Virus record (IMG/VR): IMGVR_UViG_3300028114_000090
Location: 1-25,446 of that record
DNA from: a virus
Direction: 5' to 3' (one strand)
DNA: 25,446 nt
Positions 5,307-25,446 of this stretch are shown piece after piece (the first letter of the stretch is position 1; each line of letters begins with the position of its first letter). A program made the position numbers and the translations under genes. The notes below the pieces were generated by a model. The model had not been told where the DNA came from, searched no databases, and saw nothing but the letters and a program-made list of their open reading frames with translations.

Positions 5307-5480
5307 TTATTCGTCGTCTTCCGCGTCGGCCACGATGATGCGGACCGAATTGACGCTCATGCTGTCCTTGACAGCGTCCGCGCCAACCACCATGGATGCC
5401 CGGCCGGACGGCAACTCGACTTCGACCGGGTAGTGATCCGGGAAGTTGGCCAGGAGGGATTTCATGTCGGCGACGGTCAT
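5307..5480 (-). CDS. Small acidic hypothetical protein (57 aa)
   Basis: Seen: the ATG at 5480 overlaps the stop of the preceding membrane ORF (ATGA), so this start is preferred over a GTG 21 bp upstream. The product begins MTVADMKSLLANFPD, contains a GADAVKDSMSVNSVRI strand-like region and ends in an acidic tail, ADAEDDE. The layout (MKSLL..FPD...V) is common in small phage proteins of unknown role. Coupled translation with the upstream 57-aa membrane protein is likely. Confidence 0.6.
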   Translation of the reverse strand: MTVADMKSLLANFPDHYPVEVELPSGRASMVVGADAVKDSMSVNSVRIIVADAEDDE

Positions 5481-5650
5481 CGCGCGGCCCCCGCGTTGCA
5501 CGCGGCGAGCTTCCGGGCGCGCTGGCGCTGCTTCTTGCGCTCGACTTCCAGCGCGGAACCCCAGGTGAACCAGCCGGCGAACAGGGTCAGCACCAGCGGT
5601 AGGGCTGCATCGACCAGGCTCAGGAATGTGGCAGCGTCAGGGATCATCAT
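5477..5650 (-). CDS. Small single-pass membrane protein (57 aa)
   Basis: Seen: 57 residues from the ATG at 5650 (GGAG 6 nt upstream; a second ATG follows directly). Residues 9-31 are hydrophobic (FLSLVDAALPLVLTLFAGWF), followed by a strongly basic segment EVERKKQRQRARK, so the C-terminus should stay in the cytoplasm. The stop overlaps the next start by 4 bp. The short length, one membrane helix and basic tail fit an exclusion, lysis-timing or regulatory membrane peptide, but nothing identifies which. Confidence 0.6.
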   Translation of the reverse strand: MMIPDAATFLSLVDAALPLVLTLFAGWFTWGSALEVERKKQRQRARKLAACNAGAAR

Positions 5651-5692
5651 CAGTGTCTCCGCGCCCGGCCGATAAGCCGGGCGATGTAAAGG

Positions 5693-5956
5693 TCAGCGGT
5701 AGCTGTTGTAAAAGGCGCGGTCGGCAGCCCGGTCAGCCTGGGCTTCGGCCTTGGCGCCCAGGGCGGCGCGCTTGACCAGCCGCTCGGTTGCGGTGCGGAT
5801 CAGGGCGTAGAAGTCGACCTGCTGACTGAAGTCCAGACCCGAGACCAGTTCCATCACCGCATCGCGGAAAGGCTGATCGTCGAGTTCCGAGCGCTTCTCC
5901 TCGGCGGCGAACTCCAGTGCGTCGTCTTCATCCAGCACAAGGCGGGGGTTGTACAT
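5693..5956 (-). CDS. Acidic hypothetical protein (87 aa)
   Basis: Seen: ATG at 5956 with a strong AAGGAG 6 nt upstream. The first third is very acidic (LDEDDALEFAAEEKRSELDD). The rest is helical, with an ALIRTATERLVKRAALGAKAEAQ region that could form an amphipathic helix or short coiled coil, ending RAFYNSYR. It is the second gene of the leftward operon, 10 bp after the first. No family is recognised. Confidence 0.65.
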   Translation of the reverse strand: MYNPRLVLDEDDALEFAAEEKRSELDDQPFRDAVMELVSGLDFSQQVDFYALIRTATERLVKRAALGAKAEAQADRAADRAFYNSYR

Positions 5957-5966
5957 GGCGTTCTCC

Positions 5967-6170
5967 TTACAGGCCGCGAATTGAGGTCAAGCCGGTCTGG
6001 CGCCGGATGCGGCGCTTGAGCATCTGCCGGCCGCGGTGGCCGCTGGTGCTGTAAAGGTCGAACCCGCGGGCGGTGCGCGGCAGGTTGTGCGCCCGGCGCA
6101 CGGCGCGGCGATCCAGGTGCTCGGTGGTAATGCCTGGGAAGTACAGGTCAGCAGGGGCTGCGGCGATCAT
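5967..6170 (-). CDS. First gene of leftward early operon, basic protein (67 aa)
   Basis: Seen: the frame is open from 6227, but the predicted promoter would start transcription near 6211, so the ATG at 6170 (GGGAG 8 nt upstream) is the usable start. The product is basic: MIAAAPADLYFPGITTEH, then RRAVRRAHNLPR and a C-terminal KRRIRRQTGLTS. No fold is recognised; nucleic-acid binding is a guess from charge. As the first gene after the repressed left promoter it should be made early after infection or induction. Confidence 0.6.
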   Translation of the reverse strand: MIAAAPADLYFPGITTEHLDRRAVRRAHNLPRTARGFDLYSTSGHRGRQMLKRRIRRQTGLTSIRGL

Positions 6171-6210
6171 GGGGCGGTCTCCCGTGGGTGCCGGCCGATG
6201 TGGCTGGCTT

Positions 6211-6246
6211 GGGATAAAATATAGCAATCGCTATATTCCGCGTCAA
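6211..6246 (-). promoter_or_regulatory. Left early promoter (PL-like)
   Basis: On the minus strand a TTGACG (6246-6241), a 17-bp spacer and TATATT (6223-6218) form a near-consensus sigma70 promoter with a predicted start near 6211. An operator fills part of the spacer and overlaps the -10, and a second abuts the -35, so the repressor should silence it. Confidence 0.75.
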
Positions 6247-6258
6247 TAGCTTTTGCTA
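6218..6258. promoter_or_regulatory. Left operators, two TAGC-N4-GCTA sites
   Basis: Site 1 is TAGCAATCGCTA (6222-6233), the core of a perfect 20-bp palindrome spanning 6218-6237. Site 2 is TAGCTTTTGCTA (6247-6258). Their centres are 25 bp apart. The same 12-mer consensus occurs three times near the cro start, which marks these as binding sites of the phage repressor and/or Cro. Confidence 0.8.
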
Positions 6259-6273
6259 CATATTTATTGCGCA

Positions 6274-6299
6274 GGCAAACAAAACCCGCCGAAGCGGGT
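6274..6299 (-). terminator. Rho-independent terminator of the repressor operon
   Basis: Read leftward: ACCCGC, loop TTCG, GCGGGT (6299-6284), then TTTTGTTT. It lies about 110 bp after the tumA stop and just before the left operators, so it insulates the lysogeny operon from the left early operon. A further small GC hairpin (GGGGA/TCCCC) lies between tumA and this site. Confidence 0.75.
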
Positions 6300-6405
6300 C
6301 AGGGGGTCAGGGGGGCAGGGCAGGGGATGCTCCCCGGCCCCGGCGACTCAGAAGAACGACTTGATGACCAACGAGGCGACGCCGGCCGCCTCGGATGACG
6401 ACATC

Positions 6406-6780
6406 TCAGGCCGCCTGGGCACCAACGCTGGCCAGGCGAATCAGGACTTCATCCCACGGGACACCGACTGCCCCCGCGGCATCCTGCGTAATCAACTCCA
6501 GATCCAGGAGCTTGGCAATATCGGTGCGGACGCGGCCGAGGGGCCGCTCCAACCGCGCGGCCAGGTCTTCAACGGCCACTGGCCCCAACCCTTTGAGCGT
6601 GTCCAGGAGCGTCAGCCGCGCCGGGGTCAGGTCCGCGAGGAGCTGCGCCGCGGTGGCGTACCCCAGGTGATAGTCTGCTTCCGGCAGGTCGGCACCCGCG
6701 TCTAAGCGGCGGGCCGTCTGCCGCAGCTCGGCCTGCATCTGCTGCCAGTCAGATAATTCAATTACCGCTTTCGCCATCAT
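6406..6780 (-). CDS. tumA: TumA-like antitoxin, HTH (HVO_A0114 type)
   Basis: Seen: 124 residues (MM start at 6780 or 6777), overlapping the 3' end of tumE by 23 bp. The middle, about residues 48-95, reads as a winged helix: LTPARLTLLDTLKG, then VAVEDLAARLERPLGRVRTDI, then LLDLELITQD. This matches the HVO_A0114-type DNA-binding proteins I recall beside TumE toxins. Family: the antitoxin neutralises TumE and usually represses its own operon. Here, as the last gene of the repressor operon, its expression is tied to lysogeny. Toxin-before-antitoxin order is seen in several such pairs. Confidence 0.75.
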   Translation of the reverse strand: MMAKAVIELSDWQQMQAELRQTARRLDAGADLPEADYHLGYATAAQLLADLTPARLTLLDTLKGLGPVAVEDLAARLERPLGRVRTDIAKLLDLELITQDAAGAVGVPWDEVLIRLASVGAQAA

Positions 6781-7060
6781 GACCTCCGAGCCGGTTCACG
6801 TCCGCGCTGAAATCCGCCATCAATTGATCCAGGGAGCGGAACGCATAGGCCACTTCGACCCGCCCCAGGTGTTTGTGGTCGCCTTTGCCGCGCTCGTTGT
6901 CGTAGCGCACCACACAGCGCCCGTCCCGCCCCGCGTACAGCCGATACTTGAAGGGGTGGGTGCAGCCCGCCACCGGCGGGGCCACGCGCCACACCACCGC
7001 CTCAATCACCAGCCCGTCTGGCCGCGTGATCTTCTTGCGATACACCGGGGTCGCGCTCAT
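6758..7060 (-). CDS. tumE: TumE-family toxin (DUF6516)
   Basis: Seen: 100 residues with the hallmark block KYRLYAGRDGRCVVRYDNER followed by GKGDHKH, then a C-terminal FRSLDQLMADFSADVNRL. These match the TumE/DUF6516 toxins as I recall them. The start at 7060 is 6 bp after the repressor stop; the SD is weak. Family: a type II toxin paired with an HTH antitoxin; the biochemical target is not something I can state. The pair lies between the left and right operators and behind the repressor, so lysogens should express it constantly, where it could act in plasmid-like addiction or in excluding other phages. Confidence 0.85.
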   Translation of the reverse strand: MSATPVYRKKITRPDGLVIEAVVWRVAPPVAGCTHPFKYRLYAGRDGRCVVRYDNERGKGDHKHLGRVEVAYAFRSLDQLMADFSADVNRLGGHDGESGN

Positions 7061-7066
7061 CGCCCG

Positions 7067-7486
7067 TCACGACGCTTTCTGCCGGGCGAGAAAGTGCGCG
7101 ACGATCGCTTGGTTCACCTGTTTCTTTTCCGAAAGTTCTCGCAGCACGGCCTCTTGCTGCGCCTCGGTGAGTCCGTCGAAGTAGCCGAGCAATGCCTGCT
7201 GGCGTGGCGTGAGGGCTGACGCTGCCACGCCTACAGGGCTGTCCTCCGCGGGCTGCTGGGTGGGAGCGGGGCGATCGGGCAAAGCGTCGTGGGGTTGGTC
7301 CATCCAGCCAGCGGGGAGCCGCAAACATTTCTCAATATGACGGGCGAATTTTTCCCCCATCTCTCTGTGCCCGCTCAGGTATTGCCAGATCACAGGCGGT
7401 GTTCTGTGCACCATGAGAGCAAACGCGGCCTGGTTGCCCTCGGCGCGGGTGTCTACTAATAACTGAAGTTGGTCACGTCTGGACAT
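7067..7486 (-). CDS. Phage repressor (CI-like HTH protein)
   Basis: Seen: 139 residues from the ATG at 7486; a longer open frame to 7573 crosses the operators and is not credible. Residues 1-50 form an HTH of the CI/Cro kind (RRDQLQLLVDTRAEGNQAAF, then VIWQYLSGHREMGEKFARHI), ending LRLPAGWMDQP, a phrase common in short proteobacterial phage repressors. A Pro/Gln linker follows, then a helical tail (LTPRQQALLGYFDGLTEAQ). There is no LexA-type Ala-Gly or Ser/Lys protease domain, so induction is more likely through an antirepressor than RecA cleavage. It is divergent from cro, with three operators between. Its mRNA may be leaderless. Confidence 0.85.
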   Translation of the reverse strand: MSRRDQLQLLVDTRAEGNQAAFALMVHRTPPVIWQYLSGHREMGEKFARHIEKCLRLPAGWMDQPHDALPDRPAPTQQPAEDSPVGVAASALTPRQQALLGYFDGLTEAQQEAVLRELSEKKQVNQAIVAHFLARQKAS

Positions 7487-7498
7487 GACAGCACAATA
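7486..7498 (-). promoter_or_regulatory. Candidate repressor-maintenance promoter (-10 only)
   Basis: A TATTGT (7498-7493, minus strand) lies 7 nt before the repressor ATG at 7486. No good -35 exists 16-18 bp upstream; that position is covered by the middle operator. This fits an activator-dependent promoter whose transcript would begin at or very near the start codon. Inference from spacing only. Confidence 0.35.
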
Positions 7499-7548
7499 GC
7501 AGCCGCTAGTGTAGCTTTGGCTATTGCGTAAACATGTAGCAGAGGCTA
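7497..7548. promoter_or_regulatory. Right operators, three TAGC-N4-GCTA sites
   Basis: TAGCAGCCGCTA (7497-7508), TAGCTTTGGCTA (7512-7523) and TAGCAGAGGCTA (7537-7548), centres 15 and 25 bp apart. The last overlaps the -10 of the cro promoter, the middle one abuts its -35, and the first lies next to the repressor start. The last two have the same 25-bp spacing and the same position relative to the promoter as the two left operators. Confidence 0.85.
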
Positions 7549-7560
7549 TATTTCTGCACA
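7524..7560 (+). promoter_or_regulatory. Right early promoter (PR-like)
   Basis: TTGCGT (7524-7529), 17-bp spacer, TATATT (7547-7552). The expected start, about 7-8 nt after the -10, coincides with the A of the cro ATG at 7560, predicting a leaderless cro message. It drives the long rightward operon. Confidence 0.7.
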
Positions 7561-7811
7561 TGGATATCCGCACTTACTACGATTCGTTACCGAGCGGCGG
7601 TCGCCGGGCCTTGGCAAAGGACCTGACGATATCCCCTGCCTATCTATATCAAATGGTTACGAACATACGCCCGGTGGCACCCCAGTTGTGTCGTGCCATC
7701 CAGCACGCTACCAACGGCGCCGTCACGGTCTATGACCTGCGCCCGGATATCTTCGGGCCGGCGCCTGGCCTACCGCCGACTGCGCCCGAGCCCCAGGAGC
7801 GGGCGGCATGA
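7560..7811 (+). CDS. Cro-like regulator (YdaS-type HTH)
   Basis: Seen: 83 residues from the ATG at 7560; the frame is open upstream to 7524, but that part lies across the promoter. The protein reads MDIRTYYDSLPSGGRRALAK, then DLTISPAYLYQM as the HTH, then LCRAIQHATNGAVTVYDLRP and DIF. This is the layout of Cro/YdaS proteins, which end their domain with a Pro-Asp-[IV]-F motif, followed here by a Pro-rich tail. It is divergent from the repressor and first in the rightward operon, so it should compete for the TAGC-N4-GCTA operators and favour lytic growth. The stop overlaps the next start (ATGA). Confidence 0.85.
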   Translation: MDIRTYYDSLPSGGRRALAKDLTISPAYLYQMVTNIRPVAPQLCRAIQHATNGAVTVYDLRPDIFGPAPGLPPTAPEPQERAA

Positions 7812-8017
7812 CCACTGCCCCGCAGCACTGCGGCACATGCCGTCACGTCATTGAGTCGGACCGCCATCCGCCACCGCCGCGGGACGTGGTTCCAGGGCGC
7901 GGCTACGTGGCGGGGTGCTCTCACCCTGATCACCTGTCCGAGCCGAGCAAACGCATCATCCAGCACGCGGAGCGGCCAGAACTTCCGGTGTGCTCTGGCT
8001 ATGAGGCAGCGGCATGA
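7808..8017 (+). CDS. Small Cys-rich protein, CxxC type (69 aa)
   Basis: Seen: starts MTTAPQHCGTCRHV, with Cys pairs at CGTC, then GCSHPDH and a final VCSGYEAAA. The CxxC...C...C layout suggests one bound zinc. It overlaps cro by 4 bp and the next gene by 4 bp. The same layout recurs in at least four other short products of this window and in the terminase tail. No function is known to me. Confidence 0.7.
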   Translation: MTTAPQHCGTCRHVIESDRHPPPPRDVVPGRGYVAGCSHPDHLSEPSKRIIQHAERPELPVCSGYEAAA

Positions 8018-8211
8018 CGACGCCTCTCCCGCCCAATCCGCTGATGATCGCCGTCAGGATGAGGATTCACGCCGACAGCCTCTCGGCGGTCGCCGCCGAC
8101 ATGTCCCAGATCACCGCCGATCCCTGGCCCCATCACGCGGCCGAGCTGGCCGGCGCAGTGGTTCTGCTGCGCGATTGGGCAGACGCCATCACGGAGGAGA
8201 CGGCGCTATGA
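8014..8211 (+). CDS. Hypothetical protein (65 aa)
   Basis: Seen: an ATG coupled to the upstream stop (ATGA) and a stop coupled to the next start. The product is a short helical protein (MIAVRMRIHADSLSAVAADM, then AAELAGAVVLLRDWADAI) without Cys or obvious motifs. A helical-hairpin regulator is possible but cannot be supported further. Confidence 0.6.
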   Translation: MTTPLPPNPLMIAVRMRIHADSLSAVAADMSQITADPWPHHAAELAGAVVLLRDWADAITEETAL

Positions 8212-8402
8212 GCCTGCCCATCGATATCTGCCGCTGCCTGGGGACCACGTGCGGCAGCGAGCGCATCGGTTGCCGACGGTTCGAAGACCGCAACACCGAC
8301 CCGTTGCGCACGCCCTGGGCCTGCGCGCTGCGCCGCGCTGACCTGCCAGCGTCGGAGCCCTGCCCCGCTCGCCTTCCCGCACCCACCGAGGTCTCGCCAT
8401 GA
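8208..8402 (+). CDS. Small Cys-rich protein (64 aa)
   Basis: Seen: MSLPIDICRCLGTTCGSERI, then GCRRFEDR, CAL and PCP, six Cys in 64 residues. The open frame begins far upstream, but the ATG at 8208 forms an ATGA overlap with the previous gene, so this start is used. The Cys spacing could hold a small zinc or redox site. It ends Pro-rich and overlaps the next gene by 4 bp. Confidence 0.6.
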   Translation: MSLPIDICRCLGTTCGSERIGCRRFEDRNTDPLRTPWACALRRADLPASEPCPARLPAPTEVSP

Positions 8403-9525: not shown

Positions 9526-10206
9526 ATGACGAATGAAATTGTAGCACTTCCTAGCGCGACGGCGAGCGTGACCAGTTTGGATATCTCCACATTGGTCGAG
9601 AAGCGTCACGACAACGTGAGGGCGCTGATAGTGCGGCTTGCTGAACAAGGAGTTATAACACTTCCTGAATTTCAGGAAGTACACAACGATGGTCCCGGAC
9701 CAAAATCCGTCAAGATTTACCGATTTTCCGGAGAGACTGGGCGACGTGATTCCATCATCGTAGTTGCCCAACTCTCCCCCGAGTTCACCGGCCGTTTGGT
9801 CGATCGCTGGCAGGAGCTTGAAGCTAAGACCGCAGCCCCAGCAGTGACCGACCCCATCATCGCTGCCCACATTCGCGCGCTGGTCGAAGTCGATCAACTC
9901 AAGCAGCGGCAACTGGCCGTGGAGGTCGCGCAAGCCGCCATGCAGCGGCAGATGGACAGCAACACTCGCCAGTTACAGCAGATCGAAACCGCCAACGACT
10001 ATTTCACCGTCATCGGTTGGCACCGCTACGCCAAGCTCGGCGGCAGCCTGCCGTATGCCGACGCGGCCAAGATGGGCAAGGTCGCCACGACTTTCTGCAA
10101 GGAGCACGACATCATCATCGGTCACGTCCCCGACCCGCGCTTCGGCATCGTCAACCAATACCCAAAGTGGGTTTTAGACAGTCTGTTTGCTCAGGAAGCT
10201 GCCTGA
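9526..10206 (+). CDS. Rha-family phage regulatory protein
   Basis: Seen: 226 residues, ATG preceded by AGAGG 9 nt upstream. The N-terminal 100 residues follow the Rha pattern: VTSLDISTLVEKRHDNVRAL, then LPEFQEV, KIYRFSGETGRRDS and LTG-like FTGRLVDRWQELE. A coiled middle (QRQLAVEVAQAAMQRQMDS) links to a C-terminal domain (FTVIGWHRYAKLGG ... AAKMGKVATTFCKEH) of the type attached to phage antirepressors. Family: Rha is an early protein that can block growth in some hosts and acts as a regulator. A 21-bp perfect palindrome lies within codons for LPEFQEV. Its stop overlaps the next ATG (TGATG). Confidence 0.8.
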   Translation: MTNEIVALPSATASVTSLDISTLVEKRHDNVRALIVRLAEQGVITLPEFQEVHNDGPGPKSVKIYRFSGETGRRDSIIVVAQLSPEFTGRLVDRWQELEAKTAAPAVTDPIIAAHIRALVEVDQLKQRQLAVEVAQAAMQRQMDSNTRQLQQIETANDYFTVIGWHRYAKLGGSLPYADAAKMGKVATTFCKEHDIIIGHVPDPRFGIVNQYPKWVLDSLFAQEAA

Positions 10207-15444: not shown

Positions 15445-15718
15445 TGGCGCGCTGTGGGAGTTTACGAATCACGTGTGCCGGGTCTGCTTTGGCCGGGTCA
15501 TGCGCCGTCAGGGGCCGGCCGGGGGGGCGGTGTACCGGTGTTCGCAGTGCGAAGCCGAGGCGCCCGACCGGGTTGAGGCGATCTGCACCTGCGGGGCGGC
15601 GATGCCGAACGGGCGCCTGGCGGGCCTGGCGTGCGTGCTGAATCCAAAGCCGACGCTGGAGCAGCCGAGCCGGGTGGTGGTGAAGTTTGTGGGGGAGCCT
15701 GCGGGAGTGCATTCGTGA
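15437..15718 (+). CDS. Cys-rich zinc-ribbon protein (93 aa)
   Basis: Seen: C14/C17 (VCRVCFGRVMRR) with C35/C38 (YRCSQCEAEA) form a probable zinc ribbon; CTCGAAM (C50/C52) and C66 follow, then a VVVKFVGE tail. It overlaps the preceding Zn-ribbon gene by 8 bp and the methyltransferase GTG by 4 bp, so the two ribbon proteins are probably made together. Function unknown. Confidence 0.65.
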   Translation: MADGALWEFTNHVCRVCFGRVMRRQGPAGGAVYRCSQCEAEAPDRVEAICTCGAAMPNGRLAGLACVLNPKPTLEQPSRVVVKFVGEPAGVHS

Positions 15719-17160
15719 TTGAGCATCAAGAGCTTGAGTATTGGCCGCTGGATCGGTTTGTTGAGTACGCGCGCAACCCGCGCAAGAACGATCATGCGGT
15801 GCCTCGCGTTGCCGCAGCGATCCGTGAGTTCGGGTTCAAAGTGCCGATTCTGGCGAGATCGGACGGACTGGTGGTCGACGGTCACTTGCGCCTGAAGGCC
15901 GCGCGCAGCCTGGGCCTTGAGACGGTCCCGGTGCTGCTGGCCGATGACCTGACTGACACACAGATCAAGGCGTTCAGGATCAGCGTCAACCGGATGGCCG
16001 ATCTTGCCGAGTGGGATCAAGAGTTGCTGGCGCTGGAGCTTGAGGATTTGCGGCTGGAGGACTACGACCTGGACCTGACGGGGTTTGATGCGGAGGCGTT
16101 GGATGCGCTGATGGGGGGGGTCGAGTCGACGCCTGATGGGGACAGAGACGCTGATGCGGATACCGCGCCGCAGGTTGATCAAGCAGAGGAGTTGCGCAAG
16201 AAGTGGGGTGTTGTCACGGGCCAGTTGTGGGCTCTTGGTGATCACCGGCTGCTGTGCGGGGATTGTACGTCGGAAGCGGACATCGGTCGGCTGATGGGCG
16301 GGGAACTCGCCAACTGTTGTTTTACTTCGCCGCCTTACGCCATGCAGCGCAAAAGCAGTTATGGTGGAACGCCAGTCGATCAGTATCCGGAGTGGTTCGC
16401 GGGCGTGGCAGCAAATGTGCAGCGGTACCTGGCCGACGATGGGAGCTTCTTCGTCAACATCAAGGAGCACGTCGAAGACGGCGAGCGGTCGCTGTATGTT
16501 TTCGAGACGATTAAGGTCTTACGGGCTGCTGGATGGCGCTATGTCGATCAGTTGATTTGGGCTAAGCCGGGGTTGCCTGGTGCCTGGATGGACAGGTTGA
16601 AGAATGATTTCGAGCCAGTGCATTTTTTCACGAAAAGGGACAAGATAACCTGGATGGTTCAGTGCGTTGATGTCGATACCGAAAGATTTGCTGACATTGG
16701 TGATGCGTCAATGGTGGATCTTTATGAGGATATTTATCACTTTACGAGACGGGAAAAAATAAAGTTTAACCCGAGATGCGCGGGTAAGGAGTCGAAAATG
16801 ATCAGGGTGTACGACAAGGACAAAAGCGGGTTGTCTGTGAATGGAAATGTCGGGGTTGACGGAAAGTATCGAAGCGGAATCGCAAGGCCGAGTAATGTGC
16901 TTTGGCTGCAAAACAATATGGAAAAAGCTGACCACCCGGCCATGTTCCCTGTGACGCTGCCGAGTTTCTTCATGAAACTCACCACCGACACGGGCGAGCT
17001 GGTTTACGAACCATTCTCTGGCTCCGGAACAACCATTATCGCAGGCGAGAACCTGGGCCGACGCGTGCGGGCGAGCGAAATATCCCCTGGGTATGTTGCG
17101 GTCGCACTTCAACGATACCAGGACCATACCGGGCGGACCCCGACGCTATGCCAAGGCTAA
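15715..17160 (+). CDS. ParB-like nuclease domain fused to N4/N6 DNA methyltransferase
   Basis: Seen: 481 residues from GTG 15715 (GTGA overlap). Residues 1-95 are ParB/Srx-like (LDRFVEYARNPRKN, GLVVDGHLRLKAA at 51-63, DLTDTQIKAFRISVNRMADL). An acidic linker leads to the methyltransferase: motif IV TSPPY (204-208) precedes motif I FSGSGTT (434-440), the order of class beta enzymes. The product likely methylates adenine N6 or cytosine N4 in phage DNA; no restriction enzyme is adjacent. About 16,600-16,930 (target-recognition region) is clearly less GC-rich than the flanks. Such ParB-methyltransferases often sit just before terminase genes in proteobacterial prophages. Confidence 0.9.
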   Translation: MIEHQELEYWPLDRFVEYARNPRKNDHAVPRVAAAIREFGFKVPILARSDGLVVDGHLRLKAARSLGLETVPVLLADDLTDTQIKAFRISVNRMADLAEWDQELLALELEDLRLEDYDLDLTGFDAEALDALMGGVESTPDGDRDADADTAPQVDQAEELRKKWGVVTGQLWALGDHRLLCGDCTSEADIGRLMGGELANCCFTSPPYAMQRKSSYGGTPVDQYPEWFAGVAANVQRYLADDGSFFVNIKEHVEDGERSLYVFETIKVLRAAGWRYVDQLIWAKPGLPGAWMDRLKNDFEPVHFFTKRDKITWMVQCVDVDTERFADIGDASMVDLYEDIYHFTRREKIKFNPRCAGKESKMIRVYDKDKSGLSVNGNVGVDGKYRSGIARPSNVLWLQNNMEKADHPAMFPVTLPSFFMKLTTDTGELVYEPFSGSGTTIIAGENLGRRVRASEISPGYVAVALQRYQDHTGRTPTLCQG

Positions 17161-17981: not shown

Positions 17982-18139
17982 TCATCAGCGTCGCAGACCT
18001 TCGATCAGCCTGGGCCGCCGGGTCTGAATCTGCAAAAGAGGCTATGTGCGCGTCCATCAAGGCCGCTGGACTGACCCCGCGGCAAGCTGTCGAGATCGAC
18101 AGCGAGTCAGGGTACTTAGAGCACGATTGGACGCGATGA
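17978..18139 (+). CDS. Hypothetical protein (53 aa)
   Basis: Seen: 53 residues, MIISVADLRSAWAAGSESAK, then LTPRQAVEIDSESGYLEHDW. The start overlaps the upstream stop by 4 bp, and the next gene begins one base after its stop. A helix-turn-helix-like spacing (SAKEAMCASIKAAGLTPRQA) is possible but weak. Confidence 0.55.
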   Translation: MIISVADLRSAWAAGSESAKEAMCASIKAAGLTPRQAVEIDSESGYLEHDWTR

Positions 18140-18140
18140 C

Positions 18141-18338
18141 ATGCTCAACCCCGAAGACCTGATCATCACAATCCACCCACCCAAGCCGACCACGGGCATG
18201 ATCACTGGAAAACCAAACACCGGCGTGCGCATCGTCCACTTACCCACGGGGTGCGCGGTCGAGTGCAGCAATCGCCGGTCGCAGCACAAGAACAAAGAAG
18301 CGTCGCTGGCCGTGCTGGAGTTGTTGGTCGATGTCTAA
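18141..18338 (+). CDS. Release-factor domain-like mini-protein lacking GGQ
   Basis: Seen: 65 residues. Residues 28-57 (GVRIVHLPTG, then VEC and RRSQHKNKEASLAVL) closely match the RF-1 domain 3 signature that follows the GGQ loop in class I release factors (AVRITHLPTG ... VEC..ERSQHKNK...). Aligned without gaps, the GGQ position holds T18-G19-M20, so the catalytic Gln is absent. There is no codon-recognition domain. It could bind the ribosome's peptidyl-transferase region without hydrolysis, or be a repurposed RNA-binding domain. It overlaps the next gene by 8 bp. The likeness is strong by eye; function is unknown. Confidence 0.7.
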   Translation: MLNPEDLIITIHPPKPTTGMITGKPNTGVRIVHLPTGCAVECSNRRSQHKNKEASLAVLELLVDV

Positions 18339-18594: not shown

Positions 18595-20562
18595 ATCGCC
18601 CTAACCGCCAAGGCTCGCGCCGCCGCCGAGCTTGAGCGCCGCCGCCGCAAGCGCGCCCTGGCCACGGATGCCAGCATCGCCCCAGGAAAGGACGAGTCGT
18701 TTCGGGCCTGGTGCGGGAGGCTGGCGGCGGCCGGCCTGGCGGTCGACGGGCATCCCTTCACGCTGGACAACCGGCCCGCGCTCCATGCGATCTATGACCT
18801 GATCCCGACCCATCCGGCCGACGCCTATGACCGGATGATCGTGTTGATGAAAGGCGCCCAGATGGGCCTGACGGTGTGGGAAGTCTTAGCCGATCTCTAC
18901 ATGGCCATGAAGTGGGAGCCGGCGACCATCGCCCTGTACGTGCCAGACTCCAAGCTGGCGCCCTACAAGTCGACCCACCGGTTCATGCGCCTGGTCCGCT
19001 CGGTGCCGGACATCTACAAGCGGATGACGATCAGCGTCGACGCCGACGGGGCGAGCAAGCGCACCGGCGAGGGTAACGTGCTGACGCGCACCCTGGGGGA
19101 GTCGATTTTTCTGTTCCTCTGGACATCGGGCGCGACGATGACGGAGAGTTTCCCCGCGGACGTGGTGTCGTTCGACGAGGTGCAGAACATGAGCCCCGGC
19201 GACGTCAGCAAGGTGCGCGAGCGCCTGAGCGCGTCGCTGATTCGCTTCACGCTGCTGCTGTCGACTCCGCAATGGCCGGATGCCGACATTCACTTCTGGT
19301 ACCTGCAAGGCACCCAGCATCAATTCTGGACGCGCTGCGCCGGGTGCGGCGAGAGTGCCGTGCTGTCGGAGTACCTGCCCGAGCGGCTGGGCGAGGTGAT
19401 CGCCCTGGACCCCGCCACCGACGCCTACCGCTACCGCTGCCCGACGTGCCGGGCGTGGATCGATGATCCGCAGCACGGTGAGTGGCGGGCGCAGTTCCCC
19501 GAGCGCGCGATCCAGAGCTACAGCCTGTCGCAGGTGTTGAGCCCGACGGTGACCGCGGGGCAGTTGCTGGCCGAGTGGCAGGCGATGCAGACCGGCGAGC
19601 AGCGGGCGAGTTTCTACAACCGCAAGCTCGGGCGGCCCTACGCCGACCCGTCACAGATCCCGGTGACGCGCGACCACCTGCAGGCGTGCGTGGCGGCCGG
19701 CGCCCTGGTCGGGGTGCGGTGGCAGACCAGCGGGCGCGAGACCTTCATGGGCATCGATCAGATGGGCGGGTTCAACTGCGTGCTGATCAAGGCGCGGCTG
19801 CCCGACGGCCGCCAAGCGCTGATTCATGCCGAGGCGATCTTCGACGCCGATCCCTTCGCACGGTGCGACGTGCTGATGGCGCAGTACGGGGTGCAGTGCT
19901 GCGTGGTGGAGGGGCTGCCCAACTGGAATGACGCTAAGCGCTTCGCCAATCGGCTGGCGGGTCGGGTGTTCGTGGCCAGCTATGGCGATCAGGCGGATAC
20001 CCAGGTGTGGGGCGATCAGATCGCGCGCACCGACCAGAAGACCAACACCGAAGACCGGGACCGCTGGACGGTGCGGCTGAACCAGTACAAGGCGATGCAA
20101 GCCTCGGTGGCGCGGATCACCGGGGCGACCTGTCTGTTCCCCGATCCGGGCGGCCTGGAGTGCGACTATCGCGATGGGCCGCCGCGGCGCGTGCTGTTGC
20201 TGCGCGACATCATTTTTGAGCATCTGACGCGTGTCGCGTTGATCTCGGAGCGCGACGGCGAGACCGGGCGGTGGCGGACCAAGGTGAGCAAGGTCGGCAT
20301 GGACCCGCACTTTGCCTACGCCAACATGCTGTGCGATGTGGCCTGGGCGCGGGCTTATGGCGGGGCCAGCGTGATGTTCATGGATGCGCCCGTGGCGCTG
20401 CCGCCCGATCAGATGGCCGCTCTGACGGCTGCGCAAGGCGCCCCGCGCCCGACCTGTGGCACGTGTTCCGCCTATGTGGCCGGGCGCTGCCAGGAGCGCG
20501 ACCTGGGGGTGCAGGCGGGTGATCCGGGGTGCGCTCTGTGGTGGTCTGAGGGCGGCGCTTGA
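18595..20562 (+). CDS. terL: Large terminase subunit, GpA family (N-terminus unresolved)
   Basis: Seen: coding signal from about 18595 to 20562, but the first ATG in this frame is 18835, already at the ATPase motif. Upstream residues (LTAKARAAAELERRRRKRAL, then FTLDNRPALHAIYDLIP) look genuine, with no ATG, GTG or TTG among them, and TGA at 18592 closes the frame. A -1 shift at 18600 would join a frame starting at ATG 18527. The P-loop MKGAQMGLT has its Lys at the beginning, like lambda gpA KSARVGYSK. Zn pairs CAGC and CPTC, an RNase H-like acid in MGIDQMGG, and DPHFAYANMLCD mark ATPase and nuclease domains. The tail adds a CGTC...GRC...GC Cys module. It cuts and packages phage DNA with the small terminase. 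Confidence 0.85.
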   Translation: MALTAKARAAAELERRRRKRALATDASIAPGKDESFRAWCGRLAAAGLAVDGHPFTLDNRPALHAIYDLIPTHPADAYDRMIVLMKGAQMGLTVWEVLADLYMAMKWEPATIALYVPDSKLAPYKSTHRFMRLVRSVPDIYKRMTISVDADGASKRTGEGNVLTRTLGESIFLFLWTSGATMTESFPADVVSFDEVQNMSPGDVSKVRERLSASLIRFTLLLSTPQWPDADIHFWYLQGTQHQFWTRCAGCGESAVLSEYLPERLGEVIALDPATDAYRYRCPTCRAWIDDPQHGEWRAQFPERAIQSYSLSQVLSPTVTAGQLLAEWQAMQTGEQRASFYNRKLGRPYADPSQIPVTRDHLQACVAAGALVGVRWQTSGRETFMGIDQMGGFNCVLIKARLPDGRQALIHAEAIFDADPFARCDVLMAQYGVQCCVVEGLPNWNDAKRFANRLAGRVFVASYGDQADTQVWGDQIARTDQKTNTEDRDRWTVRLNQYKAMQASVARITGATCLFPDPGGLECDYRDGPPRRVLLLRDIIFEHLTRVALISERDGETGRWRTKVSKVGMDPHFAYANMLCDVAWARAYGGASVMFMDAPVALPPDQMAALTAAQGAPRPTCGTCSAYVAGRCQERDLGVQAGDPGCALWWSEGGA

Positions 20563-20608: not shown

Positions 20609-20905
20609 TCATGCGGGATGAAGCTCTTCGCGGATGACCCGCCGCAACGTGTCTTCAAGGGTGCGGCGCTGCATGGCCTCGCGCAGCGTGGCGTTGATCA
20701 GCGTCTGATAGCCGCGCTCGCCTGACTGGTGCTTGAACCATGACACCACGTCCGGGTCCAGGGCAATGCTGATCTTGGTTTTTTTACCCGGCGCGGGCTG
20801 TAGTCCGACGCGGTGAACGGCACGGGCCAGGTCCTCTTGAGTCACCGGCGGCGCCGTATCCAGGTCGGTATCATCCCACTTGCTGGTAATAGTGGCGTTG
20901 CTCAT
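20609..20905 (-). CDS. brnA: BrnA-family antitoxin
   Basis: Seen: 98 residues. The N-terminal half is variable and acidic (KWDDTDLDTAPPVTQEDLAR); the C-terminal half has the BrnA ribbon-helix-helix signature KKTKISIALDPDVVSWFKHQ and GYQTLINATLREAMQRR. The start lies 35 bp inside brnT, the usual toxin-first overlapping order. It neutralises BrnT and, with it, represses the operon. Convergent with terL, 46 bp apart. Confidence 0.88.
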   Translation of the reverse strand: MSNATITSKWDDTDLDTAPPVTQEDLARAVHRVGLQPAPGKKTKISIALDPDVVSWFKHQSGERGYQTLINATLREAMQRRTLEDTLRRVIREELHPA

Positions 20906-21143
20906 GTTTATCGGCCTTGCGCAGGGAAATGACGTGAATCGTGTCGGATGTTTCCGTGTGTGCGATCACGACCACGGTGACACCCAACAGCCCCAGGGTG
21001 ATAAATCGGTGTTCGCCATAGGCGAAGCGCCGATCCTCGAAGGTGAACGTGTGCCCGGTGAAGGCCGTTGCCGCAGCGGCCAGGTCCATCCCGTGTTTCT
21101 TCCGGTTGGTGGTGCGCTTTGATTCGTCCCAGGTGAAGTTCAT
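20871..21143 (-). CDS. brnT: BrnT-family ribonuclease toxin
   Basis: Seen: 90 residues from the ATG at 21143; the longer open frame to 21179 crosses the promoter. MNFTWDESKRTTNRKKHGMD, then FEDRRFAYGEHRFITLGLLG, VVVIAHTE and IHVISLRKADKHEQRHYYQ are the standard BrnT blocks (F.WD..K...N..KHG; ER...G; H......RIIS.RKA...E). Family: RelE-like fold, stops translation through RNA cleavage. The pair is oriented against the surrounding phage genes and has its own promoter, so it behaves like an independent cassette within the late region. Confidence 0.92.
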   Translation of the reverse strand: MNFTWDESKRTTNRKKHGMDLAAAATAFTGHTFTFEDRRFAYGEHRFITLGLLGVTVVVIAHTETSDTIHVISLRKADKHEQRHYYQQVG

Positions 21144-21145
21144 GC

Positions 21146-21179
21146 GGATAACGATATAGACAATTATCCATACCGTCAA
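21146..21179 (-). promoter_or_regulatory. brnTA promoter with palindromic operator
   Basis: Minus strand TTGACG (21179-21174) with TATATC after 15 bp or TATCGT after 17 bp. A GGATAA/TTATCC inverted repeat (21146-21151 and 21164-21169) covers the -10 area, a fitting site for BrnTA autoregulation. Confidence 0.5.
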
Positions 21180-21440: not shown

Positions 21441-21443
21441 GCC

Positions 21444-22589
21444 ATGACCAACCTGGTCCCCTTTTCGTTTGAGTCCCACAAAGTCCGCGTCCTGACCGAC
21501 GACAACGGCGAACCGCTGTTTGTCGCCAAGGACGTTGCTGAAGCCCTCGGTTACAAGGACCCGACAACTGCCGTTAAGTCCCACTGCCGTGGGGTGCAGG
21601 AATTGCACCCCATCCCGGATGCTTTGGGGCGGATGCAGGAGGCCCGCGTCATCCGCGAGCCAGACCTCTACCGTCTAATCTTCGGTTCCACCCTGGACAG
21701 CGCCCAGGCGTTCGAGCGCCTGGTGGTGGAGGAGATTCTCCCGACCATCCGCAAGACCGGACGGTACGCGGCTCCCTCTGCCGTGCCCCAACCCATCCCC
21801 GCCACCATCGACTTCGAGGGCACCACCCTGCGTGTGATCGAGCGCGACGGCGCCCCCTGGCTGGCCGCTTCAACGCTCGCCGCCGCCCTGGGCGAAGGTC
21901 TTCACCTGGTGCAGAACACCTTCCACCGCAACCGGGGCCAGTTCGCGGGCATGTCCGCGGTGATCCGTGACGGGCGCACGCCGCAGGTGCGCATCTTCTC
22001 GGTGTGGGGTGTCTACCTGCTGTGCCTGCTGATTCATACCCCGCGCGCCGCCCGACTGCGCGAGTGGACGCGCACGGTGTTGGATACGCTCGGCGCGCTC
22101 GGCGGTTCGCGCCTGCCGCCGCCCGCCGGCGCAGGCGTCGAGATCCAGCTACGCGCCCTGGTGACGCTGCGCGACGGGGTGTTGGTCGGGATCGCGCCGT
22201 TGCCGGAACCGGCGCCGGTGGCGCTCGCCTCCCCCACGATCCTCGGCGAGGTGATTGACCGCTTTGCCCCCGCGCGGGCGGCGGCCACGCGCTACCACTA
22301 CCCGGCGGAGTTGGCGAAGCCCGACCGGCGTAGCGCCGACGGCATGATCAACAGCTCGGCCTGGCTCAATCAGATCGGCTCGCCGCTCGGCGACCTGTTG
22401 CGCCAACTCAAGGCCGATGGCCACGACGTGAACGGCGCCCTGATCCAGTTCCACGCCCTGCGCGGCATCCTGTTGTCGTCCACGCAGATGTGGCGCGCGT
22501 TCCGGAGCCAGGCGTCCGCGGCGCTGGACCAGTCCCTGCCCTGGACGCCAGCGTTACCCGACACGCTGTGGGCGTTGACCGACTGGTGA
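21444..22589 (+). CDS. BRO-type phage antirepressor with duplicated BRO-N-like domain
   Basis: Seen: 381 residues from the ATG at 21444 (CTGGAG 8 nt upstream); the frame is open further up but crosses the terminator. Domain 1 (about 5-105) is a clear BRO-N: FESHKVRVLTDDNGEPLFVA, then KDVAEALGYKDPTTAVKSHC and RLIFGSTLDSAQAFERLVVE. A second, more divergent copy (about 117-215) has FEGTTLRVIERDGAPWLAAS, RIFSVWGVYLLCLLIH and ARLREWTRTVLDTL. The rest is Ala/Pro-rich with a conserved-looking C-terminal helical part. Family: such proteins bind and disable phage repressors. With a repressor lacking a cleavage domain, this is a candidate inducer of the lytic cycle. Confidence 0.85.
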   Translation: MTNLVPFSFESHKVRVLTDDNGEPLFVAKDVAEALGYKDPTTAVKSHCRGVQELHPIPDALGRMQEARVIREPDLYRLIFGSTLDSAQAFERLVVEEILPTIRKTGRYAAPSAVPQPIPATIDFEGTTLRVIERDGAPWLAASTLAAALGEGLHLVQNTFHRNRGQFAGMSAVIRDGRTPQVRIFSVWGVYLLCLLIHTPRAARLREWTRTVLDTLGALGGSRLPPPAGAGVEIQLRALVTLRDGVLVGIAPLPEPAPVALASPTILGEVIDRFAPARAAATRYHYPAELAKPDRRSADGMINSSAWLNQIGSPLGDLLRQLKADGHDVNGALIQFHALRGILLSSTQMWRAFRSQASAALDQSLPWTPALPDTLWALTDW

Positions 22590-23165: not shown

Positions 23166-23355
23166 TGGCCGATCGGCTTGGAACGCTCGGCGCTTCCTGA
23201 TAGTCCCGGCAGACGCACCAAGATCCCGGCCATAAGCTGCCGGGCCGCTTGCTCGCTGGGGCCTGCGCCAGGCAGGACCCCAACCCCGTGCCATCGCCTA
23301 CCGTGTCGCGCACCCAGTGGGCACAGGCGCGGCAGGCGACCTGGACCGGCGTCAC
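23152..23355 (-). CDS. Small Cys-rich protein, CxxCxHW type (67 aa)
   Basis: Seen: GTG at 23355 overlapping the portal stop (GTGA). VACRACAHWVRD, then GLGSCLAQ and WCVCRDYQ reproduce the CxxC-x-HW ... GxC ... C layout of the plus-strand Cys ORFs, here on the opposite strand. Coupling to the portal gene and pattern conservation argue it is real despite the short length. It probably binds zinc; role unknown. Confidence 0.6.
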   Translation of the reverse strand: MTPVQVACRACAHWVRDTVGDGTGLGSCLAQAPASKRPGSLWPGSWCVCRDYQEAPSVPSRSAITGR

Positions 23356-25446
23356 GTGGCGATGGTCCAAACCTGGGGGTCGACGGCGTGGAGGGCCTTT
23401 TCCATGGCGTCCTTGACTTCGGTCTGGGCAGGGCAATAATAGATCGTGAGCGGCTCAACCGCCTGTTGAACGATTGAAAGGTCACAGGCCGGTATCCGGG
23501 GCATGGGGGTAAACAGCCCCTCTCCGAGATTTGAGCCGCTTTTCTGTACCCGTCCCGGTTGCTCAATGTAGAGCGTCACCAGATGGTTGCGGTCATCGCT
23601 GGACGTGAAGCGGCTGGCGCCATAGACCGCTGTTTTGCCATCGAAGCGCGTGCGGCGCCACTCCCAATGCACCGGATGACCGGTGGCATCGGACACGATC
23701 GCCGTCGGCGTTGAGCGGATGACTTCCGGCAGAGCCAGTACGTCGCCGCGCGTCACATGATAGCCAGCCGTCTCGCCCGCACGCTCCCCGTGTTTCCAAA
23801 TAAACTTGACCAAGCCATATCCGCGCGCCGTGCCGCCCGGCTGACGACTCAACTGCTTTCCTGTCACTTTGATCGATCCGTCGCTGGCCTCTACCGCCGG
23901 CCCTTTGTCTAACTGCGCAACCAGGTCGGATGCTTGGAGACGCACCAGCATGGCGTCTGGCGCCGCCAATGGATGCTTCAGCGTGAAGTCGTAGAGTTCA
24001 TGAAGTTGGCGTTTCTCGTAGTGCACTTGCGGGGATCGTGCAAATCGCCCATCGTCGTCATGATAAGGATCAGCCTTCGCTAACCGCCCCCCAGCGTCCT
24101 CAGCCCCGTCGCCACGTCCTGCGCCGTCAGCCCCCATACGGCCTCGGCGGCCCGCTGTCGGCGCGTCCTCAGTCGCAGCCGCCGCAGCCGCTTTCTGATC
24201 GCCCTGATCGCCCGCGTCGGGTCCGCCCGGTTGGCTGCTGTCCGCGCTTGCAGTGGCCCCGTCTTGCTCTCGCGCGTCCGCGCCGCTCGTATCATCTGTC
24301 TGTCCTCCACCGGTCGCAATTTGCATCCACGGCCCGATCAGGGACGGGTTGATGGGCGCATCCCCCAACGGACCGGGCAGCGCCGCGTAGCCTTCTTCGG
24401 CGCGCAGCTCGTTCACCGTCAACACCAGCTTGCGGATTTCCAGGCGCTGCGCGGCGTCGTCCTCGTCGAGCCCGGTCCAGCGGAAGCAGTAGTGATCGCT
24501 GAAGCGGCCGACGAGGTCATCCGAGCACACCCCTTCCAGGTACGACAGCAACGGGCGCAGACCGGAATCCTTGGACGCGGCGAGTTTTTGCGCGGTGTCG
24601 CTGCCGGCCAGGGCCGAGGTGTTGCCGCCGGTGAAGGAATCGAAGTTGATCTCGGCCGGCGACATGCCGTAGATGGCGCAGATGAGCGAGGTGAGGAAGG
24701 TCATCCACTTGGCGAAGTGCATTTCGTCGGCGGCGACATCGATGCGCGTGAACTCGGCCTTGCCGGTTGGGTCCTGGCTGAACAGGACCGGCATCCGCCA
24801 GTGGTTGTTGGGGCCGTGCACCATGCTGTGCCAATGGCGCTTGAAGGCTTCTTGCTGGCTGGTGTCGATGGTGCCGAACAGCGACAGGAAGCCGCGCGGA
24901 AAGCTGTTGTCGTCAAAGCCCTTGCTGTTGTGGGTCATGGCGTTGAGAAAGCCGGTGACGACGCGCACCAGCAACTCAGTCTCACCGAGCCCGTAGCCGC
25001 CCAGGCGCACATCGGCGCGCGGGTTGCGCGGGGTGTAGATCAGGTCGTCGTGGGTGTAGGTGGTGACGACTTGGCCGGTGACGACCTGGACGGCAAACAC
25101 GTCGGGATCGCCCCGGTAGCCGGTTTCCGGGCAGAGGCGGATGGTGGAGCCGTCGAGCGCGTAGCAGCCATCGAGCAGGCCGGTGCCGCGCTGGGTCTCG
25201 GTTTCGATCGCCAGCGCGTCATAGGTCAATGACTCGCGCGTTGCCTTGGCGATCAGGGTGCTGAACGGGTCGCGGCGCAGGCGAGCGCGTTGCCGCGGGC
25301 GGGATTCCCAGCCGCTGTGGGTGAGGAATCGCGTCAGCGCTTCGCGGGCGCGTTGCTCGGGCGGGGTGATGTCGTGCTGCGGGTCGACGTGGGCGATCAT
25401 GAACCCCGGACCGCGACCGCCGTCTTGCGGCTGGCAGAAGCGCTGC
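23352..25446 (-). CDS. Phage portal protein with C-terminal PBECR-like nuclease domain (5' end outside window)
   Basis: Seen: open to the window edge beyond the internal ATG at 25400 (QRFCQPQDGGRGPGF precedes it), so the start is missing. The N-terminal 370 residues match portal proteins: LTRFLTHSGW, DPFSTLIAKATRESLTYDAL, YALDGSTIRLCPE, AIYGMSPAEINFDSFTGGN. A long low-complexity Gly/Ala/Asp linker (about 24,070-24,300) follows. The C-terminal 190 residues (GKQLSRQ, GYGLVKFIWKHGE, HVTRGDVLALPEVIRSTPTA, FTSSDDRNHLVTLYIEQPGR) resemble Barnase/EndoU/colicin-like nuclease domains that tail phage portal or head proteins. The portal forms the DNA channel; the extra domain may be an injected toxin. 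Strand is opposite to terL. Confidence 0.8.
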   Translation of the reverse strand, partial: QRFCQPQDGGRGPGFMIAHVDPQHDITPPEQRAREALTRFLTHSGWESRPRQRARLRRDPFSTLIAKATRESLTYDALAIETETQRGTGLLDGCYALDGSTIRLCPETGYRGDPDVFAVQVVTGQVVTTYTHDDLIYTPRNPRADVRLGGYGLGETELLVRVVTGFLNAMTHNSKGFDDNSFPRGFLSLFGTIDTSQQEAFKRHWHSMVHGPNNHWRMPVLFSQDPTGKAEFTRIDVAADEMHFAKWMTFLTSLICAIYGMSPAEINFDSFTGGNTSALAGSDTAQKLAASKDSGLRPLLSYLEGVCSDDLVGRFSDHYCFRWTGLDEDDAAQRLEIRKLVLTVNELRAEEGYAALPGPLGDAPINPSLIGPWMQIATGGGQTDDTSGADAREQDGATASADSSQPGGPDAGDQGDQKAAAAAATEDAPTAGRRGRMGADGAGRGDGAEDAGGRLAKADPYHDDDGRFARSPQVHYEKRQLHELYDFTLKHPLAAPDAMLVRLQASDLVAQLDKGPAVEASDGSIKVTGKQLSRQPGGTARGYGLVKFIWKHGERAGETAGYHVTRGDVLALPEVIRSTPTAIVSDATGHPVHWEWRRTRFDGKTAVYGASRFTSSDDRNHLVTLYIEQPGRVQKSGSNLGEGLFTPMPRIPACDLSIVQQAVEPLTIYYCPAQTEVKDAMEKALHAVDPQVWTIAT

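Follow-up and report, generated by a model that had tools for sequence, protein, structure and literature searches.

Organization of the locus

The window examined here, by which we mean the whole 25,446-base stretch of the virus record IMGVR_UViG_3300028114_000090, carries a candidate lysogeny switch in which a prophage repressor of 139 amino acids (aa) and a divergent YdaS/Cro-type protein of 83 aa are accompanied by copies of one palindrome, TAGC-N4-GCTA (arms and centre together TAGCNNNNGCTA), placed at a predicted left (PL) and right (PR) early promoter and at a putative promoter for repressor maintenance (PRM). An original prediction, drawn from the letters of the DNA alone, had called this a lambda-like pair of left (OL) and right (OR) operator regions, and the two open reading frames (ORFs) have the sizes that it gave. 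The features that carry the argument are as follows.

6218..6246, minus strand: PL, TTGACG-17-TATATT, 10/12 in a consensus scan (-35 at 6246-6241, -10 at 6223-6218)
6222..6233: operator OL1, TAGC-AATC-GCTA (18-bp form 6219-6236), overlapping the PL -10; top matrix score in the window
6247..6258: operator OL2, TAGC-TTTT-GCTA, adjoining the PL -35
7067..7486, minus strand: prophage repressor, 139 aa, with an N-terminal helix-turn-helix (HTH) related to CI of the SfV/H-19B type and to phrog_5736, and a short C-terminus
7493..7498, minus strand: putative PRM -10, TATTGT, 6 nt before the repressor ATG, with a poor -35
7497..7508: operator OR3, overlapping the putative PRM -10
7512..7523: operator OR2, adjoining the PR -35, 15 bp from OR3 and 25 bp from OR1
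7524..7552, plus strand: PR, TTGCGT-17-TATATT (-35 at 7524-7529, -10 at 7547-7552), with its spacing kept in relatives
7537..7548: operator OR1, overlapping the PR -10
7560..7811, plus strand: YdaS/Cro-type protein, 83 aa (PF15943, 1.6e-14; phrog_35, 3.4e-15)

Operators and promoters

The exact palindrome occurs five times in the window (at 6222, 6247, 7497, 7512 and 7537) and at no other position, which upholds the two left and three right 12-bp sites of the original prediction; 100 dinucleotide shuffles gave a mean of 0.07 exact sites and a maximum of 1, and none attained 5. Sites with one mismatch numbered 9 against a shuffle mean of 3.9, and 2 of the 100 shuffles attained 9, a weak excess that leaves the exact sites alone standing out. 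A matrix of 18 bp trained on the five sites scored these same sites at 18.7-25.1 and the next-best window position at 10.3, and the second flanking base of the 18-bp sites is A or T in 10/10 half-sites. The original prediction had named as its refutation a motif common elsewhere in the genome and had suggested scanning the complete phage. The motif is not common: a 40,361-base twin record (L001/L006), with identical repressor and Cro, has the same five exact sites and no others, and all five exact sites of a 43,551-base relative lie in the locus.

The site pairs at the two early promoters stand in identical register. OL1 and OR1 each reach from the spacer into the -10 hexamer, of which they take in the first two bases, OL2 and OR2 end beside the -35, and the centres within each pair are 25 bp apart; this geometry, together with the third site on the right, had been described correctly, as had a separation of about 1.3 kb with the repressor operon between (OL2-OR3 1250 bp, OL1-OR1 1315 bp). 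OR3 overlaps the possible PRM -10 by two bases, in the register seen at the -10s of PL and PR. Lambda has three OR sites with near-equal spacing, which is not found here, where 25 bp separate OR1 from OR2 and 15 bp OR2 from OR3, so that 18-bp sites at OR2 and OR3 would overlap by 3 bp. A consensus scan of 5400-8400 returned two promoter-like sites and passed over PR and PRM: besides PL (10/12) it picked a plus-strand site at 6209-6237 (9/12), across OL1, from which transcription would enter the repressor operon in the antisense direction.

The cro ATG lies 7 nt after the PR -10 hexamer and the repressor ATG 6 nt after the putative PRM -10, and this short spacing suggests that both mRNAs probably start at their ATG, that is, without a leader. 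Both spacings recur in four related loci (L003, L004, L005 and L166), the 6-nt one as judged by eye. Measured from the predicted starts, the centre of OR2 is about 42 bp upstream for PR and about 31.5 bp upstream for PRM, where it lies over the PRM -35. In lambda the repressor that activates PRM sits at OR2 at about -42. Since OR2 covers the predicted PRM -35 in the window, activation of that type seems doubtful, and PRM may be controlled by negative autoregulation or with help from OR1, at about -56.5.

The repressor

A Pfam scan of the repressor gave no S24 peptidase match, so RecA-driven cleavage of the lambda type is not expected. The protein fits the small non-cleavable class (Gifsy/PaaR2/DicA-like), with about 130-140 aa, an HTH, a short C-terminus and no peptidase; its match to DicA is weak (E 3.5e-4, 20 bits vs a cut-off of 101). 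Its structure model (mean predicted local distance difference test, pLDDT, 68.8; predicted template modelling score, pTM, 0.44) is confident for about the first 60 residues only, with four helices within residues 3-54; it makes the C-terminus helical too, but with low confidence, and for that reason the C-terminal fold was not used as family evidence. The top fold match of the model is a Rep-Ant complex of a Salmonella temperate phage (5d50, Foldseek E 4.2e-3), and another 5d50 chain aligned with the model over 65 columns at 1.1 Å and 28% identity. The repressor has four sequence matches in the PDB, none of them named PaaR2.

Relatives of the locus

L003, L004, L005 and L166 retain the arrangement wholly or partly, with five exact sites each in L003 and L166 and three each in L004 and L005; L166 is a close relative within a 7.1-Mb Lamprocystis metagenome-assembled genome (MAG), in which 5 of 13 exact sites fall within the immunity locus. 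Compared with the window, OR1-OR3 of L003 have identical arms (8/8) and centres identical at 2/4 positions. Repressor residues 1-67 are 88% identical in L003 and 84% in L004, and the C-termini diverge beyond. OL and OR are some 0.6-0.7 kb apart in L004 and L005; in L003, where the genes between repressor and OL are replaced, they are 4 kb apart. N4 centres and repressor C-termini vary among these independent relatives. Arms and register are kept while centres and neighbouring genes change, which argues for selection on arms and register.

Thirteen contigs were found only through Cro (L010-L022), of which 11 are without a site, L013 has two and L020 one. Among named phages that share a repressor by way of the S24 half, none of the eight fetched regions (L264-L271) contains an exact TAGC-N4-GCTA. 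One of them, L264 (Pseudomonas phage PseuP_224), shows by eye TTACC-N4-GGTAA-like sites at a comparable position upstream of cI; its repressor is 60.6% identical to that of L029, and a one-base shift of the operator code is possible.

Distribution of the operator type

A DNA-only scan for a two-site promoter, with the pattern TAGCN4GCTATTG-N{9,11}-TAGCN4GCTA, which PL and PR of the window both fit with N10, matched at least 120 viral stretches and 116 stretches of a genome collection. The counts that follow refer to the 236 loci listed among these matches, all of them used, including 18 shared-tail loci described below; the two collections overlap (L181 and L238 are one contig, and the source records of L118 and L249 are equal-sized), so the counts are not independent. 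Control scans of the viral collection yielded 2 matches when the arms were reordered to CGAT/ATCG and 1 when the gap was cut to 4-6 bases. The N10 spacing occurs in 188 of the 236 loci, vs one third expected, and the following hexamer ends in T in 190 of 192 listed N10 rows. Pseudomonas is the commonest name in the titles of the genome stretches (46/116); Achromobacter, Acidovorax, Variovorax, Methylococcales, Marinobacter and Lamprocystis also appear, besides a few distant groups that are perhaps there by chance. Far from being restricted to this phage, the TAGC-N4-GCTA operator type is widespread.

Of the 236 listed loci, 92 encode a homologue of the window repressor HTH (phmmer E<0.01, within 3 kb). 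In 84 of these 92 one more exact site is found at the repressor start, and sites stand at both OR and OL in 82, with stray sites amounting to 5 in 776 kb. Because the OL pair is there by selection in all but two loci, in which the pair is at OR, the OR site alone is the independent observation. Peptidase_S24 is matched by 82 of the 92 listed homologues, and 8 of the 92 are 165 aa or shorter. In a survey of leaders covering 88 loci, the ATG came 9 nt or less after the -10 in 30, a longer leader was present in 55 and no start was seen in 3; 17 of the 30 short-leader loci are of a Pseudomonas type with GGAGG before a second ATG and were left out by eye, which leaves 13/88 leaderless-like.

The shared-tail loci form a set apart. 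Eighteen pattern loci (L152, L162, L206, L208, L251, L259 and L263 among them) have a common TTTTAC/TTGGAC-like tail, and 10 of the 18 are at N9; seven contigs of a single Methylococcaceae MAG (NSP1-2) are also among the pattern matches. The shared-tail loci are probably another element, resembling a dispersed repeat unrelated to phage operators.

Genes beside the switch

The remaining features that enter the interpretation lie to the left of the repressor and further to the right in the window.

5967..6170, minus strand: first ORF after PL, 67 aa, no confident family
6283..6300, minus strand: hairpin resembling an intrinsic terminator, after the repressor-tumE-tumA operon and before OL/PL
6406..6780, minus strand: TumA-type antitoxin with HVO_A0114 winged helix, overlapping tumE by 23 bp (PF25212, 9.3e-15)
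6758..7060, minus strand: TumE toxin, in the repressor operon (PF20126, 1.4e-14)
9526..10206, plus strand: Rha-type regulator, antirepressor candidate (PF09669, 2.4e-7)
21441..22589, plus strand: Bro-N protein, Ant-type antirepressor candidate (PF02498, 1.1e-23; phrog_130, 7.7e-49)

The repressor gene is followed by those for TumE and the TumA-type antitoxin, with gene starts that are tight or overlapping. The TumE domain adjoins the winged-helix antitoxin, the arrangement of TumE-TumA, a family of translation-targeting toxin-antitoxin (TA) systems according to the excerpts of PMC10584680, and the two genes are a predicted TA pair. For the hairpin, position and not score is the argument, as the 3-kb region contains 1 such hairpin vs 1.8 expected from shuffles. 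The 67-aa ORF was considered as an N-type antiterminator, for which family searches gave no confident family. Both the Rha and the Bro-N protein match antirepressor families. LexA boxes in the window are not above chance (8 vs a mean of 6.6), and the sole exact one, at 18087-18102, is not beside an antirepressor candidate.

In lambda, rexAB lies between the repressor and OL. The gap from repressor to OL in 93 listed loci ranges from 16 to 3555 bp and is below 100 bp in 48. We looked at the cargo of this interval through 37 hand-picked ORFs (from 89 interval ORFs and the L003 set), which serve as examples and not as a census or a rate. Larger intervals hold RexA (L114, PF15969, E 2.4e-54), PDC-S42 (L189) and, in L166, a TumE/TumA pair in the same slot as in the window; a ShosA/DprA-like protein and a HipA-like kinase are present in L003. 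Several cargo Pfam matches are not defence genes (ketoacyl-synthase III and zinc ribbons, for example), and PADLOC gave no match for 6 of the 10 cargo ORFs scanned singly. By analogy, the cargo fits the position of lambda rexAB. The interval of L003 (4420-7907) also encodes a 295-aa unknown protein and others, and its content is likely to be defence cargo.

Elsewhere in the window, a second TA pair is encoded at 20609-21179 on the minus strand (BrnT toxin, PF04365, 1.9e-21; BrnA antitoxin, PF14384, 2.6e-13). A 65-aa ORF at 18141-18338 (plus strand) matches an RF-1 peptide-release domain (PF00472, 8e-10; phrog_20323), and a protein at 15631-17160 (plus strand) combines a weak ParB_N match with an N6/N4 DNA methylase domain. 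The portal protein (23352-25400, minus strand), whose C-terminal part, some 340 residues long, is not covered by the portal match, is on the strand opposite the terminase (18835-20562, plus strand).

Discussion

The best explanation of the locus as a whole, to which we give a probability of roughly 0.86, is that a temperate phage has its immunity region here and that its 139-aa repressor and YdaS-type Cro act on TAGC-N4-GCTA operators. Dimers of the repressor would bind the palindrome at PR and PL, one on the -10 and another at the -35, 25 bp further upstream, so that both early promoters would be shut; of all parts of the mechanism, this blocking of -10 and -35 is inferred with most confidence. 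Contact between neighbouring dimers at the 25-bp spacing is plausible, because OR1/OR2 and OL1/OL2 of phage ST2-8624 are also 25 bp apart. The weakest step is the idea that OL and OR touch across 1.25-1.3 kb, which may strengthen repression. Expressed from PR, the YdaS-type Cro would occupy the same sites, probably including OR3, and shut the repressor promoter. Repressor, TumE and TumA would form one lysogenic operon ending before PL, so that the TA pair would occupy the place of rexAB. As the repressor is without a peptidase domain, we propose, by analogy with the Gifsy phages, that it is probably removed by an antirepressor, the Rha or Bro-N candidate, and not by RecA-driven self-cleavage.

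The description as lambda-like therefore needs to be narrowed: divergent repressor and cro with OR between them and OL at the early left promoter stand, whereas equal OR spacing and S24 do not, and PRM activation is doubtful. The closest functional analogues are PaaR2/YdaS of CP-933P, the best match, and the Gifsy repressors. For CP-933P such a layout has been shown to function, with footprints of PaaR2 and YdaS, a paaR2 mRNA lacking a leader, a repressor operon that carries TA genes, and operators at PL (excerpts of PMC8630535). Like the window, CP-933P has a small CI-like repressor heading a TA operon, a divergent YdaS-type Cro and shared operators between them, as well as operators at PL beyond the TA genes and, as predicted in the window, a leaderless repressor mRNA (excerpts of PMC8630535). 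It differs in its operators, of which there are three at OL, three pseudosymmetrical ones at OR and, in addition, four inverted repeats of the GTTTAGTAA type, and in its TA pair, which is ParE2/PaaA2 (paaR2-paaA2-parE2, ydaS-ydaT) and not TumE/TumA (PMC8630535, in part). The Gifsy-1/-2 repressor is described as a protein of 136 aa without a cleavage motif that is not cleaved on induction, and the antirepressor genes of Gifsy-1/-2/-3 lie outside the immunity region, as do the candidates in the window (PMC3121763, in the parts available). The Gifsy antirepressors are under LexA control in that account, unlike the window, which has no excess of LexA boxes.

Other systems share single traits. CI of SfV and of ST2-8624 (H-19B-like) has an N-terminal HTH about 38% identical to that of the window over residues 3-66 or 3-70, and one SfV record calls its repressor UmuD-like. 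In the ST2-8624 record the annotated operators form pairs with 25-bp spacing, as in the window, but they are TTTATC-N5-GATAAA-like, and TAGC-N4-GCTA is absent from the fetched SfV and ST2-8624 stretches and from the whole of SfV. A layout of 3 + 2 operators is known from immB of N15 and phiKO2 (PMC4488713, excerpts), leaderless cI and cro mRNAs from PY54 (excerpts of either PMC4488713 or PMC5977221), and an absent OL3 from 933W (excerpts of PMC5977221); N15, phiKO2 and 933W have other operator sequences (PY54 family) and other repressors than the window. A named phage with the motif does exist: Pseudomonas phage PG1 of Stutzerimonas stutzeri (OQ504958.1, complete, 37,204 bases) contains TAGC-N4-GCTA three times and no more, once at OR and at OL as a pair spaced by 25 bp, with a YdaS protein beside the repressor. 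Unlike the window it has an S24 repressor and GGAGG before cro, and its OR2/OR3 are degenerate by eye.

It is also conceivable that the YdaS/Cro-type protein, or else a host factor, is the main or sole occupant of the sites, the 139-aa protein being a TA-linked regulator inactive at PL and PR. The two proteins predicted to bind there are both small HTH proteins, and the TA pair follows the 139-aa gene; but the repressor gene is flanked on both sides by sites in 82 of the 92 listed homologue loci (at OL by selection) despite differing interval genes, and in the excerpted account of CP-933P both PaaR2 and YdaS bind overlapping sites (PMC8630535), so we regard this explanation as improbable. Still less credit, close to none, goes to the idea that the palindromes are an incidental set or a repeat element and not operators. 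Another two-palindrome element does exist in the shared-tail loci and the Methylococcaceae contigs, yet the five sites of the window match exactly, fit the promoter register, occur nowhere outside the locus and persist in relatives with other centres, and the control patterns produced next to nothing.

A variant of our preferred explanation, compatible with it, dispenses with the OL-OR loop and treats OL and OR as independent and the interval as a slot for cargo. It comes a little short of an even chance. The widely varying gap between repressor and OL, which means that the OL-OR distance is not conserved, and the 933W precedent without OL3 (PMC5977221, in part) speak for it, whereas the paired sites at both ends and the octamers that PaaR2 is reported to form in solution (excerpts of PMC8630535) speak for a loop.

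Several observations weigh against reading the locus as a repressor-operated immunity region, or against parts of that reading. In 144 of the 236 listed loci there is no homologue of the repressor HTH within 3 kb at phmmer E<0.01, which contig ends and other elements explain only in part, and 3 of the 92 homologues, which match YdaS, may themselves be Cro. The window HTH is 26% and 20% identical to those of two Pseudomonas repressors over the whole alignment. The spacing of OR2 and OR3 is too short for two 18-bp footprints, and both sites are degenerate in L004 and in L005. PRM has a poor -35 with OR2 lying over it. Finally, with LexA boxes at chance level, a link between the antirepressor candidates and SOS is not supported.

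Taken as a single locus, this is an ordinary, well-formed lysogeny switch, of a familiar layout and ordinary in kind, in which the operator sequence and the combination of features are new. The original prediction did not recognise the operator, and our motif-string and topic searches did not find it in the literature, where subscription journals lie mostly outside their coverage, so that it has possibly been published; motif strings in two papers fell within primers, and a search by PDB codes led to unrelated papers only. It is a recurring type all the same, and the window is a minority form of it: its 139-aa repressor lacks S24, cro and repressor appear to be leaderless, and TumE-TumA takes the rexAB position. 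The motif is directly searchable and can find and group immunity regions in prophages of Pseudomonas and other proteobacteria, it predicts which of these prophages may block each other, and in PG1 there is a named phage that makes the prediction testable. The interval between repressor and OL is a place to seek exclusion, defence and TA genes. One further idea, tentative and in our view rather unlikely, is that TAGC-N4-GCTA marks one large immunity group, with a single operator code across many proteobacterial prophages while the C-terminal half of the repressor (SOS-cleavable S24 or short antirepressor-type) and the defence or TA cargo of the interval change. If so, phages with different induction triggers would be mutually immune.

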